In this document: piece by piece, positions 4,492-36,168 of the stretch
Layout of the letters: every line of letters begins with the position of its first letter
Numbering within the stretch: position 1 is the first letter of the stretch
Position numbers and translations under genes: made by a program
The notes under the pieces: generated by a model
Database searches by the model: none
What the model was told of the DNA's origin: nothing
The model's input: the letters and a program-made list of their open reading frames with translations, nothing else
Source: Marmoricola sp.
GTDB taxonomy: Bacteria > Actinomycetota > Actinomycetes > Propionibacteriales > Nocardioidaceae
DNA length: 42,067 nt
Reading direction: 5' to 3'
Assembly (NCBI GenBank): GCA_025965315.1
Contig: JAOPXD010000044.1
Span: 1 to 42,067, forward strand

Positions 4492-5106
4492 TCACCGGAC
4501 CGCGATCTGGTGAGCCAGTGCGACAGCGGCGGTCTGGGTGAAGGAGCCGCTGATCTCGATGCTGCCGTCGGTGATCGGAGCATCGACCGACGCGGCCGTC
4601 AGGACCTTGCCGCCGACGACGAGCCCCAGCCTCCCCCCGCTTCGGAACAGCTTCCGCGTCAGGCGCGCGAGGACGGCCGTGCCCCGGCGGTCGAACTCGA
4701 TGTTCACCACCCAGGTCGACTCGCCAGGAGGCACATCAGTGCTGACCTGGCGGACCTTGCCCGCCCAGGATGCCGGGGCGAGCAGGTACTTGGTCCTGTG
4801 ATCGCACGCGAGCAGGAAGGACTTCGCACCCGTGGCGTGCGGGGCCCGCTCCGTCCGGGGGCAGACGAAGCTCGCGAAGCGCAATACCTCGGGTGCAGGC
4901 GCCGTCGGTGCTCCTGCGCCAGCGCTCGGTCTGAGCACCACCCGGAACTGCAGCTGCCCCGGACGAGTCGGTGCCAGGGTCGACGGGGTCAGCGACGGAG
5001 TTGGCGTGGGCCCGTGACCAGCAGCCGTGGAGTGGCCACCGCAGCCGGCCAGAAGCAGGGCGGCGACCAGGAAGCAGGACACGTGGGAGACCCGGGCACG
5101 GCTCAT
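4492..5106 (-). CDS. Lipoprotein with a SecD P1-head-like domain
   Basis: 204 aa. The N-terminus has a signal peptide with lipobox LLAGC, so the mature protein should be lipid-anchored outside the membrane. A proline/threonine linker follows (PTPTPSLTPSTLAPTRPG). The C-terminal 70 residues (VNIEFDRRGTAVLARLTRKL ... GGKVLTAASVDAPITDGSI ... SGSFTQTAAVALAHQI) match the periplasmic P1 head pattern of SecD, which has FDxxG, a DGKVxSAP-like strand and an ISGxFT helix. No SecD membrane part is present. TAGAGT 6 nt before the ATG suggests a leaderless transcript. The role is unknown; an export-related or substrate-binding job is possible but unproven. Confidence 0.8.
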   Translation of the reverse strand: MSRARVSHVSCFLVAALLLAGCGGHSTAAGHGPTPTPSLTPSTLAPTRPGQLQFRVVLRPSAGAGAPTAPAPEVLRFASFVCPRTERAPHATGAKSFLLACDHRTKYLLAPASWAGKVRQVSTDVPPGESTWVVNIEFDRRGTAVLARLTRKLFRSGGRLGLVVGGKVLTAASVDAPITDGSIEISGSFTQTAAVALAHQIAVR

Positions 5107-5252: not shown

Positions 5253-5528
5253 TCAGCCGCCGGCGACGGCGGGGATGATCGAGATCGAGGCGCCGGCCGG
5301 GGTCGCCGTGCCGAGGCCGTCGAGGAAGCGGACGTCCTCGTTGCCGACGTACACGTTCACGAACCGGCGCAGGTCGCCGGCGTCGTCCAGCACGCGGGCC
5401 TTGATCCCCGGGTGGTTCGCCTCGAGGTCGTTGAGCACCCCGTCCAGGTCAGTACCCTCGGCGCTGACCTCGGAGGCCCCGTCGGTGTAGGTGCGCAGGA
5501 TGGTCGGGATCCGGACGGACACGCTCAT
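5253..5528 (-). CDS. metO: MoaD/ThiS-type sulfur-carrier protein, MetO/CysO-like
   Basis: 91 aa beta-grasp protein of the MoaD/ThiS family ending in Gly-Gly (IIPAVAGG), the tail that is adenylated and turned into a thiocarboxylate. Internal hallmarks are LRRFVNVYVGNEDVRFLDGL and PAGASISIIP. It starts 29 nt after the stop of the threonine-synthase-like gene, with AGGAGA 10 nt before the ATG, so it is the second gene of that riboswitch-controlled unit. In Streptomyces, MetO is the carrier that gives sulfur to MetM for homocysteine synthesis (from memory of published work). CysO, the cysteine-synthesis carrier, is the alternative name. The activating E1-like and C-terminal-processing enzymes are not in this window. 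Confidence 0.85.
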   Translation of the reverse strand: MSVSVRIPTILRTYTDGASEVSAEGTDLDGVLNDLEANHPGIKARVLDDAGDLRRFVNVYVGNEDVRFLDGLGTATPAGASISIIPAVAGG

Positions 5529-5557
5529 GGTGCTGGTTCTCCTGGTGGGTGGGGCGA

Positions 5558-6838
5558 TCAGATGATGCCGGCCGCGACGAACGCGTCGTACGTCGGGGCG
5601 ATGGTGGCGACGGGGCCGACGCGGTCGGAGATCGCGTCCAGGGTCTTGAGGCCGTGCCCGGTGTTGATCACGACCGTCTCCAGGGACGGGTCCAGCTGAC
5701 CGGTCTCGACGAGCTTCTTCAGCACCGCGACGGTGGTCCCACCGGCGGTCTCGGTGAAGATGCCCTCGGTCCGCGCGAGCAGCACGATGCCGTCACGGAT
5801 CTCGTCGTCGGTGACCTCCTCGACCGCACCGCCGGTGCGCCGGGCGATGTCGAGGACGTAGATGCCGTCGGCAGGGTTGCCGATCGCCAACGACTTGGCG
5901 ATGGTGTCCGGCTTGACCGGGCGGATCGCGTCGACACCCGCCTTGAACGCGGTCGCGACCGGGCCGCACCCCTCGGCCTGGGCGCCGAAGACCTTGTAGG
6001 GCTTGTCCTCGACCAGGCCGAGCTTGATGAACTCCTGGAACGACTTGTCGACCTTGGTGAGCTGGGAGCCGGAGGCGACCGGGATCACGATCTGGTCGGG
6101 CAGCCGCCAGCCGAGCTGCTCGGCGATCTCGTAGCCCAGGGTCTTGGAGCCCTCGGCGTAGAACGGGCGGACGTTGACGTTCACGAACGCCCAGCCGTCC
6201 TCCTCGCCGGCGATCTCGGAGGCCAGCTTGTTCACGTCGTCGTAGTTGCCGTCGACAGCGACCAGCGACTCGGTGAAGATCGCGGAGTTGACCTGCTTGG
6301 GCTGCTCGAGGTTGCTCGGGATGAAGACCACGGTCTTGATCCCGGCACGGGCGCCCGCAGCAGCGACGGCGTTGGCGAGGTTGCCGGTGGACGGACAGGC
6401 GAACACCTTGGCGCCGAACTCGACCGCGGCGCTCAGGGCGCACGCGACGACCCGGTCCTTGAAGGAGTTGGTCGGGTTGGTGGAGTCGTCCTTGACCCAC
6501 AGCGTGGTGATCCCGAGCTCGCGGCCGAGGTTGTTCGCCTTGAGGAGCCGGGTGTACCCGGGCTCGGTGTTCGGCGACTGCTCGATGTCGTCGGGGACGG
6601 GCAGCAGCGCCTTGTAGCGCCAGATGTTCGCGGGCCCGGCCTCGATGTCCGCGCGGGTGATGGCCGGGAAGTCGTAGGAGATCTCCAGCGGGCCGAAGCA
6701 CTCCATGCAGGCGTAGTGCGGGCCGAGCTCCTGGGTGGCGCCGCACTCGCGACAGATGAGTCCGGTGGCGTTCCCGAAGGCACGGTCACGAAGGACGGTG
6801 CCGCCCGCCGTCTGCTGTACCGGGGTTACGTTGCTCAA
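5558..6838 (-). CDS. metM: Threonine-synthase-fold PLP enzyme, probable MetM (O-phosphohomoserine to homocysteine)
   Basis: 426 aa from a TTG start at 6838, chosen because a perfect AAGGAGG lies 6 nt upstream; an ATG at 6856 would put that ribosome site inside the gene. An N-terminal Cys4 zinc-ribbon-like motif is visible (C29, C32, C44, C47). The PLP lysine is K127 in NPTNSFKDR, followed by the phosphate loop STGNLANAVAAAGARAG. By family it could be threonine synthase (thrC). The SAM-I riboswitch in its leader and the sulfur-carrier gene directly downstream instead fit MetM, which uses O-phospho-homoserine plus carrier thiocarboxylate to make homocysteine. A second, canonical thrC elsewhere in the genome would settle it, but it is outside this view. 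Confidence 0.82.
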   Translation of the reverse strand: MSNVTPVQQTAGGTVLRDRAFGNATGLICRECGATQELGPHYACMECFGPLEISYDFPAITRADIEAGPANIWRYKALLPVPDDIEQSPNTEPGYTRLLKANNLGRELGITTLWVKDDSTNPTNSFKDRVVACALSAAVEFGAKVFACPSTGNLANAVAAAGARAGIKTVVFIPSNLEQPKQVNSAIFTESLVAVDGNYDDVNKLASEIAGEEDGWAFVNVNVRPFYAEGSKTLGYEIAEQLGWRLPDQIVIPVASGSQLTKVDKSFQEFIKLGLVEDKPYKVFGAQAEGCGPVATAFKAGVDAIRPVKPDTIAKSLAIGNPADGIYVLDIARRTGGAVEEVTDDEIRDGIVLLARTEGIFTETAGGTTVAVLKKLVETGQLDPSLETVVINTGHGLKTLDAISDRVGPVATIAPTYDAFVAAGII

Positions 6839-6851
6839 AGGAGGCCTCCTT
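6838..6851 (-). promoter_or_regulatory. Self-complementary ribosome binding site of metM
   Basis: The minus strand reads AAGGAGGCCTCCTT, a perfect 14-nt palindrome. Its first half is an ideal Shine-Dalgarno sequence, and its last T is the first base of the TTG start codon. It begins directly after the last base of riboswitch helix P1. A short hairpin (5 bp, loop of 4) could hide the ribosome site, so it may be the expression platform. Confidence 0.7.
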
Positions 6852-6971
6852 CTCATCTTCCCCGGGTCGGCTCTCGACCAAGGACGGATTTGGCACCACA
6901 CCCACGAATTGAGGCTCGTGCGGCGGTTGCCGGGACTTCAACGGGCCGTTCCCTCAGTCCCTCTCGATGAG
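6852..6971 (-). ncRNA. SAM-I (S-box) riboswitch in the metM leader
   Basis: Minus-strand RNA, 120 nt. P1 closes with CTCATC (6971-6966) and GATGAG (6857-6852). After P1 comes GAGAG, then helix P2 GGGACT...AGTCCC enclosing the kink-turn/pseudoknot piece GAGGGA..CGGCCC. The highly conserved GGCAACC follows. P3 contains CACGA...TCGTG, then GGTGCCAAATCC (consensus GGUGCUAAUUCC). P4 is GGTCG/CGACC. All core SAM-I elements occur in order, so this is not SAM-IV. No uridine-rich terminator follows; helix P1 abuts the ribosome binding site, so control is probably translational, with SAM turning the gene off. Confidence 0.93.
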
Positions 6972-7048
6972 CTGTGCACCAGCGTATGGAGCGAGCCCAG
7001 AATGTGCACGTCGATTCCACCATGCGAGACCGTCGTCCCACATCGTGG

Positions 7049-7894
7049 TCAGCCTGCCGCGACCGCGATCCGTTCGCTGAGCAGGTCGAGCAGATCCATC
7101 ACGCCGTCGGGACCGTCGACGACCGCGTCGCAGAGCTCGCGCAGCTTCGATTCCTCGTCCGACCCGGAGCACACCAGCAGCGCCGGCATCCCTCCGGCAC
7201 GCAGCTCCAGCACTGCCTGGAACGCGGGGACGTCGCCGAGGTCGTCCCCGACGAAGACGATGCCGCCGACGTCGTGCTCGGCGATCAGGCTGCGCAGCGC
7301 GATGCCCTTGTCCATGCCCGCGGCCCGGATCTCGATCACGAAGCGGCCGGGCTCGATGGTGAGGTGGCGCGCCTCGGCGGCCTCGGTGAGGACCGGCAGC
7401 AGGGCGTCGAAGGCGGCCTTGGGATCAGGGCAGCGACGGGTGTGCACGCCGACCGCCAGGCCCTTCTCCTCGACCCAGGCGTCCGGCACCCCGGCCCGGC
7501 GGAACAGCCGCGGCAGCTCGCTGATCAGGCTCGCGAGCCCCGGCGGCGGTTTCGGGGAGACGACCCGACGGCCCGACGAGGTCCAGCGCTCGTTGCCGTA
7601 CTGGCCCAGGACCACGAGCTCGTGCCCGGTGGCGCCGATGTTGTCGCCGACCTCGTCGAGACCGCCGAGAGCCAGCACCTGGCGGGCCGGGCGTCCGGTG
7701 ATCACCGCGATCGTGCGGACCTGGGTCGACAGCGAGATCAGCAGGTCCTGGGCACGCTCGTGGATGTGAGCCACATCGGGGTTGTCCACGATCGGGGCGA
7801 GGGTGCCGTCGAAGTCGAGGGCGACCAGCAGGCGGCGGCCGGTGCGCACCACGTCGTCGTACGCCGTGATGGCGGCGGCGGAGCGGAACTCCAT
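7049..7894 (-). CDS. otsB: Trehalose-6-phosphate phosphatase OtsB
   Basis: 281 aa HAD-superfamily phosphatase. Motif I is LLVALDFDGTLAPI (nucleophile and acid aspartates), motif II is AVITGRP, and motif IV is GIVFVGDDLGDVPAFQAV with the metal-binding aspartates. MDKGIALRSL supplies the motif III lysine. It removes phosphate from trehalose-6-phosphate, finishing the OtsA/OtsB route to the stress sugar trehalose. The matching otsA lies 1 kb away on the other strand. ATG at 7894 was chosen over a TTG four codons upstream. Its 3' end lies 77 nt before the riboswitch of metM, in the same direction, so read-through into the riboswitch leader is possible. Confidence 0.93.
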   Translation of the reverse strand: MEFRSAAAITAYDDVVRTGRRLLVALDFDGTLAPIVDNPDVAHIHERAQDLLISLSTQVRTIAVITGRPARQVLALGGLDEVGDNIGATGHELVVLGQYGNERWTSSGRRVVSPKPPPGLASLISELPRLFRRAGVPDAWVEEKGLAVGVHTRRCPDPKAAFDALLPVLTEAAEARHLTIEPGRFVIEIRAAGMDKGIALRSLIAEHDVGGIVFVGDDLGDVPAFQAVLELRAGGMPALLVCSGSDEESKLRELCDAVVDGPDGVMDLLDLLSERIAVAAG

Positions 7895-35913: not shown

Positions 35914-36104
35914 ACAACATTGCGGCGGCGCCGCTCCGGCATGCCCACTGCGAGCACTGCGAGCACGAGATCGTCCTCGCCCCGCGGGTCGGGTGGATCG
36001 AGATCTTCCCCGGCGACACTTACGACCTCTGCCCGGACAACGAGACCGGCCGGCACCAACCGGACCAGCAACGCGACTTCGATCGCCCGTACTGGAGCCG
36101 ATGA
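35901..36104 (+). CDS. Small cysteine/histidine-rich protein, possible zinc binder
   Basis: 67 aa. Cysteines and histidines cluster in APLRHAHCEHCEHEIVLAPRVG, with one more Cys in DTYDLCPDNETGRHQ, so a small metal site is plausible. GGAGG lies 4 nt before the ATG. No family is recognised. It is the last gene of the band-7 unit. Its stop codon (36102-36104) lies inside the acceptor stem of the tRNA-Thr gene on the opposite strand, an overlap of 9 nt. Confidence 0.65.
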   Translation: MDALNNIAAAPLRHAHCEHCEHEIVLAPRVGWIEIFPGDTYDLCPDNETGRHQPDQQRDFDRPYWSR

Positions 36105-36168
36105 CAGGAGTCGAACCCGCGACATCCTCTTTACAAGAGAGGCGCTCTACCAACTGAGCTACATCGGC
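36096..36168 (-). tRNA. tRNA-Thr, anticodon UGU
   Basis: Minus-strand cloverleaf: acceptor GCCGATG (36168-36162) pairs with CATCGGC (36103-36097), discriminator T at 36096. D arm GCTCAGTTGGTAGAGC. Anticodon arm CCTCT-CTTGTAA-AGAGG, with anticodon TGT. The T arm holds GCGGG-TTCGACT-CCTGT, with one weak pair. CCA is not encoded. It reads threonine ACA/ACG codons. Confidence 0.96.

Follow-up and report, generated by a model that had tools for sequence, protein, structure and literature searches.

The metM-metO operon of the window (the whole 42,067-nucleotide stretch of Marmoricola DNA analysed here), which stands under a SAM-I riboswitch, very probably makes homocysteine by the MetM/MetO pathway. 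That pathway is already known from Streptomyces, and the operon adds a member in Nocardioidaceae. The sequence-only reading had proposed this route. The proposal was supported by the search for MetX and MetA, neither of which was found in the genome, by a MoeZ-like activator, and by the riboswitch ahead of metM in 80 and metO behind it in 70 of 80 relatives; the activity is assigned by homology, and we infer the MetM reaction and the path of its sulfur by analogy. Two outcomes that would have counted against the proposal, a poor RF00162 score and the lack of a second thrC, did not occur.

The operon with its leader occupies 6973-5253 on the minus strand, the riboswitch being followed by two genes. 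The aptamer (S box) was identified with cmscan at 6973-6850 (minus strand) and matched RF00162 over all 108 model positions, scoring 71.3 bits where the gathering score is 44.4 (E 7e-15); it was the only RF00162 match in the whole assembly. The first gene, metM (6838..5558, minus strand, 426 aa), encodes a probable homocysteine synthase with a threonine-synthase fold, which scored 257.3 bits against the cut-off of 167.1 of the thrC equivalog model TIGR00260 and also matched PF00291. The second, metO (5528..5253, minus strand), encodes a sulfur carrier protein of 91 aa, which scored 45.5 bits against the cut-off of 22.5 of PF02597 (ThiS family) and ends exactly in AVAGG. The SAM-I leader, the PLP-dependent threonine-synthase homologue and the Gly-Gly sulfur carrier that had been recognized by eye were thus all confirmed by model searches. 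The start codon of metM is likely the TTG at 6838-6836, 6 nt past the Shine-Dalgarno sequence AAGGAGG (6851-6845, minus strand). The GTG at 6901, at which the mechanically called ORF starts, was rejected because it falls within the aptamer. The upstream neighbour of the operon is a trehalose-phosphatase-type gene, above the TIGR00685 cut-off, and metO is followed at 4492-5106 by a gene for a small protein that has a SecDF P1-head domain and, by inspection, resembles a lipoprotein. The sole tRNA in the window is a tRNA-Thr (TGT) at 36093-36168. Among the matches listed, the closest MetM (96 % identity) is from a Marmoricola MAG.

Three ThiS-family matches were found in the genome, namely MetO, a CysO that lies beside CysM on contig C36 as the genome's own cysO-cysM pair, and a weak third on contig C129. 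MetO is 61 % identical to this CysO, the tail of which reads GGASAGRA. The solved structure closest to MetO is 3dwg_C (E 1.1e-25), which we take to be CysO of M. tuberculosis. A MoeZ-type protein (ThiF plus rhodanese) is present and is the one full-length ThiF match of the genome. Mycobacterial MoeZR sulfurates both MoaD and CysO, according to the abstract of PMC3227635, so one activator of this type could, by analogy, serve MetO as well. JAMM-type pieces were found near two contig ends of the genome, and the JAMM-type gene of the cysO-cysM cluster is seemingly cut by contig ends (L129:6384-6722 and G000 C196:6-191, G000 being this genome).

The named relatives comprised the best 80 of at least 565 confirmed. 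MetO lies within 141 nt after MetM in 70 of these (in one it is cut by a contig end), and it is therefore normally kept. Among the ten others, L093 stops at a contig end. The MetO C-termini were exactly GG in 56 relatives, GGC in nine (L027, L041, L042, L045, L047, L059, L064, L091 and L097), and GGS, GGSR or GGYR in four (L025 GGS; L020 and L023 GGSR; L040 GGYR). Residues past the Gly-Gly were thus present in 13 of the 70, mostly a single Cys, and such longer tails would need trimming, perhaps a task of the CysO system's JAMM protease. Seven of the nine MetO-less genomes with enough downstream sequence were searched (L038, L046, L054, L087, L090, L094 and L096; three Nocardioides and four Pseudonocardiaceae). 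A CysO-like protein (57-61 % identity) was the sole close carrier in all seven, with the start of a CysM-like gene downstream in six (not at L276), and a further, distant carrier-like protein (42-49 %) was found in three of the four Pseudonocardiaceae. MetM of these lineages thus probably takes its sulfur from CysO, which suggests that one CysO would feed both cysteine and homocysteine synthesis. These seven genomes, which all keep MetM, also favour an alternative in which the cellular sulfur source of MetM is free sulfide or CysO, with MetO a helper or redundant. However, the regular retention of MetO behind MetM among the relatives makes this alternative rather unlikely.

As to the acyl-homoserine route, neither MetX (TIGR01392, E 1e-60) nor MetA was found in the genome; the assembly (4.07 Mb) is 90.5 % complete, and the absence of MetX is therefore weak for a single genome. 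The Cys/Met-metabolism family PF01053 is represented above its cut-off by two full-length members and, in addition, a partial match. One full-length member is of the cystathionine gamma-synthase type (above the NF005871 cut-off), and the other is below all cut-offs shown and best matches a cystathionine gamma-lyase model. Since no acyltransferase was found and a cystathionine beta-synthase-like protein (by inspection) is encoded on the same contig as the gamma-synthase-type member, both may act in the conversion of homocysteine to cysteine. The gamma-synthase-type protein could make cystathionine if acyl-homoserine were made.

The distribution of the two routes was assessed over one fixed set of 296 Actinomycetes genomes. 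MetM was called by BLAST at E up to 1e-100 (189 genomes) and MetX by TIGR01392 at E up to 1e-60 (188 genomes, with no match reaching the curated cut-off of that model). Both were present in 87 genomes, MetM only in 102, MetX only in 101 and neither in 6, against 39 expected by chance for the last class (odds ratio 0.05, P=5.9e-19, kinship not corrected). MetM and MetX therefore appear complementary, and MetM would replace MetX over the class, with MetX present too in 87 of the 189 MetM genomes. Two of the six genomes with neither (G089 and G270) have MetA. In the other four (G027, G030, G091 and G200) MetM, MetX and MetA were all below the thresholds; these are perhaps auxotrophs, incomplete genomes or users of another route. 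RF00162 (E up to 0.001) was matched in 201 of the 296 genomes, comprising all 189 with MetM and 12 of the 107 others, a count of presence in the genome and not of place. The 12 with a match and no MetM at the threshold were G022, G041, G047, G076, G091, G246, G253, G263, G270, G278, G294 and G313. Place was resolved in the named relatives, where an aptamer lies upstream of MetM in 80 of 80 (74 by a strict motif, 6 by Rfam). The SAM-I riboswitch thus helps to tell MetM from ThrC.

It had been anticipated that standard annotation would call the gene thrC, and this proved correct, metM being above the NCBIfam thrC cut-off. A search for a second thrC in a homoserine cluster, which had been proposed as a check, was positive: contig C128 carries lysA-hom-thrC-thrB-rho, with hom called by PF00742, thrB and thrC above the TIGR00191 and TIGR00260 cut-offs, and lysA and rho by inspection. 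MetM is 34 % identical to this ThrC. Each of 21 genomes had at least two thrC-family genes above the cut-off. When 25 MetM and 22 ThrC rows were placed in one tree (a single ThrC gene being entered twice; cluster context examined for this genome's ThrC alone), the two groups fell on opposite sides of one branch with support of 100/100, and in an alignment of 64 MetM and 22 ThrC rows (52 and 21 distinct) 44 columns were fixed differently (>95 % in each group). The ThrC stretch PVGNAGN (as aligned in 6cgq; PTGNAGN in this genome's ThrC) is PVASGSQ in MetM. The family model therefore fails to separate MetM from ThrC, since metM exceeds the TIGR00260 cut-off yet falls outside the ThrC clade. A role of metM in plain threonine synthesis was rejected on these comparisons, a second thrC lying elsewhere in the genome. 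The gene might instead encode a further threonine synthase under SAM control, or an enzyme that makes both threonine and homocysteine, as its score above the thrC equivalog cut-off would allow and as is suggested by a Microcystis homologue that made threonine in vitro and was not fully MetM-like in the cell (excerpt of PMC12172450). This is very unlikely, however, given that the proper thrC sits beside hom and thrB, that regulation by SAM and a co-encoded sulfur carrier would be senseless for threonine, that MetM appears to stand in for MetX over the class, and that conserved stretches such as PVGNAGN are altered. A cysteine-type carrier system, with MetO serving cysteine synthesis and MetM replacing CysM, is suggested by the resemblance of MetO to 3dwg_C and to the genome's CysO but is hardly credible, because a separate cysO-cysM pair is present, MetM is on the threonine-synthase and not the cysteine-synthase branch, and SAM control points to methionine. 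The homocysteine reading of metM-metO matters for annotation, since a curated model that gives the name thrC means that methionine synthesis can be overlooked across a large part of Actinomycetes.

The proposed scheme is as follows. ThrB would make O-phosphohomoserine, part of which ThrC would turn into threonine. The MoeZ-like enzyme would load sulfur onto the Gly-Gly terminus of MetO, forming a thiocarboxylate. With this thiocarboxylate MetM would displace the phosphate from O-phosphohomoserine, and the resulting homocysteine would be converted to methionine and on to SAM. The SAM-bound leader would then block translation of metM, probably aided by base pairing between the P3 tip and the ribosome-binding site, so that methionine would draw on the shared intermediate only at low SAM.

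The leader itself points to translational control, because the Shine-Dalgarno sequence follows P1 directly and no T run of more than 4 occurs in the next 60 nt. The 3' strand of P1 (GAUGAG, 6852..6857, minus strand, from the coordinates of the RF00162 match) is immediately followed by AAGGAGG (6845..6851), which lies inside the palindrome AAGGAGGCCTCCTT (6851-6838). Transcription termination as the switch was rejected: no terminator-like site was found in 6700-7150, and none of 191 leader records (repeats counted) had a T run of more than 4 in the 60 nt beyond P1. A palindrome GGAGGCCTCC over the Shine-Dalgarno sequence was present in the window and in 8 of 74 named relatives. In its longer form in the window it overlaps the TTG start and is folded into a hairpin in the MFE structure, which makes it a possible second sequestering element. 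The window leader as a whole folds barely better than its shuffles (z -1.45). SAM-I riboswitches with direct translational control have been described (Barrick and Breaker 2007, excerpt of PMC2258182). A 2005 survey detected no conserved RNA structure at the methionine operons of Actinobacteria (excerpt of PMC1262725), and no mention of SAM riboswitches at actinobacterial threonine synthase genes was found in an excerpt of PMC12452182.

The outer part of P3 in metM aptamers of Actinomycetes possibly carries a built-in strand against the ribosome-binding site, such that SAM, by docking P3 and P1 side by side, would clamp the site in a helix with P3; we put this reading a little short of an even chance. 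In SAM-I structures this outer part packs beside P1. The variable part of P3 in the window (6898..6924, minus strand, 27 nt, between GCAACC and GGTGCC) folds as a single hairpin (MFE), with the proposed strand GCCUC (6911..6915, minus strand) at its tip, complementary to GAGGC at 6848-6844. These 5 pairs are not significant in the window taken alone (P=0.39 and 0.36). P3 of L054 (Nocardioides terrae) has 119 nt with an extra hairpin block.

Complementarity was sought over many leaders. Equal-length rows more than 85 % alike were removed before counting (90 % for the nearest-relative contrasts), and 29 of 220 records without a leader by the strict motif were left out (8 other genes of this genome, 6 relatives and 15 other loci). 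In 49 nonredundant Nocardioidaceae leaders, chosen by names and family codes (L023, L035 and L056 by vaguer names), the duplex energy peaked at P3 nt 6-15 from the 5' end (-9.28 kcal/mol, letter-shuffled sites -6.96). Nt 9-18 gave -8.69 against -7.33 kcal/mol, and the four other windows were close to the shuffled energies or weaker. For 60 leaders that come from other families and have a P3 of at least 36 nt, the peak lay 9-21 nt from the 3' end of P3 (-11.31 and -10.66 against -7.75 and -6.82 kcal/mol), with the eight remaining windows likewise close to their shuffles or weaker. Helices were then counted in windows picked after the energy scan on the same sequences, with shuffles that, as for the energies, preserve letters and not dinucleotides. 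At least 7 pairs were formed in 35 of the 60 other-family leaders, whereas shuffles averaged 2.7 such leaders, with 8 at most, and a control P3 stretch gave 1 of 60. At least 6 pairs were formed in 25 of the 49 Nocardioidaceae against 9.5 (largest 17) and 2 of 49 for the control. Among 37 short-P3 leaders, which include the window itself (L167), 5 had at least 7 pairs, where shuffling gave 2.2 and a maximum of 6 (shuffled site) or 7 (shuffled P3). The 35 helix-bearing leaders represent 9 of 19 family labels, which mix codes and names, so that some of the nine may be one family. No helix of at least 7 pairs was found in three Kribbella or four Pseudonocardiaceae leaders.

The proposed pairing took two forms. 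In the nine other family labels the 3' side of P3 carries a GCGAGGCC-type strand that would face GGCCUCGC just ahead of the start codon, with 8 pairs in an Actinomadura leader, and in Nocardioidaceae the 5' side of P3 carries a stretch rich in pyrimidines that would face the Shine-Dalgarno sequence. One Nocardioidaceae genome (L155) has the form of the other families, with CGAGGCC in P3 and GGCCTCG in the site. Paired changes in P3 and site included GCGAGGCG with CGCCTCGC and, each side being one base longer, GCGGGGGCC with GGCCCTCGC. Of the 60 long-P3 leaders, 47 have CCTCG in the site, 31 CGAGG in P3 and 29 both. The 'nearly invariant' GGCCTC of alignment A1 (45 of these 60) is biased because its leaders were picked by hand. 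Single-sequence folding, by inspection, put the anti-site strand of many Nocardioidaceae in a 5' bulge of about 5 nt between two stems, and a stricter count found at least four of the five motif bases unpaired in 18 of 50. Compared with its relative L018, the window lacks the inner stem, and GCCUC is in the hairpin tip with its first G paired (MFE fold).

Per-sequence shuffles of the complementarity between P3 and the site were mostly not significant, with P≤0.05 in 20 of 148 (P3 shuffled) and 19 of 148 (site shuffled). Comparison of matched with permuted partners, which ignores kinship, gave 0/200 in two windows and 1/200 in a third, and 15/200 in the lowest-energy Nocardioidaceae window. Nearest-relative contrasts did not support covariation, either in the best Nocardioidaceae window (7 of 10 pairs; sign test P=0.17, Wilcoxon P=0.053) or in the others (10 of 18 and 7 of 15). 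No description of such pairing was found in titles and abstract openings or in excerpts of PMC1262725, PMC8269248, PMC2258182 and PMC10907184, which leaves its absence from print unproven. The P3 helix is a possible new SAM-I expression platform, and if real it would link a much-studied SAM aptamer directly to the ribosome.

Among known systems, the closest is MetM/MetO of Streptomyces albulus, with a SAM riboswitch upstream of metM (Hasebe et al. 2024, doi 10.1128/aem.01247-24, as cited in an excerpt of PMC12172450). The present operon shares with it the threonine-synthase-fold enzyme, the MetO carrier and the position of the riboswitch, and differs in belonging to Nocardioidaceae and in its TTG start; the likeness is drawn from the description and from a Kitasatospora stand-in. 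The abstract of the S. albulus study reportedly agrees with MetM/MetO in that species. Kitasatospora, the nearest named stand-in from Streptomycetaceae, reaches 68 % identity for MetM and 70 % for MetO, and its MetO ends in GGC, whereas that of the window ends exactly in GG. The CysO-CysM-Mec+ system of M. tuberculosis (3dwg) uses a carrier of the same family with a Gly-Gly end. Its enzyme, CysM, uses O-phosphoserine and, unlike MetM, belongs to the cysteine-synthase branch; the present genome has both systems. With ThrC (TIGR00260; 6cgq, 1uim) MetM shares the family, the PLP lysine motif SFKDR and probably the substrate O-phosphohomoserine, but it is set apart by a CxxC...CxxC N-terminus, the 44 fixed differences, its separate clade and its identity of 34 % to the ThrC of the same genome.
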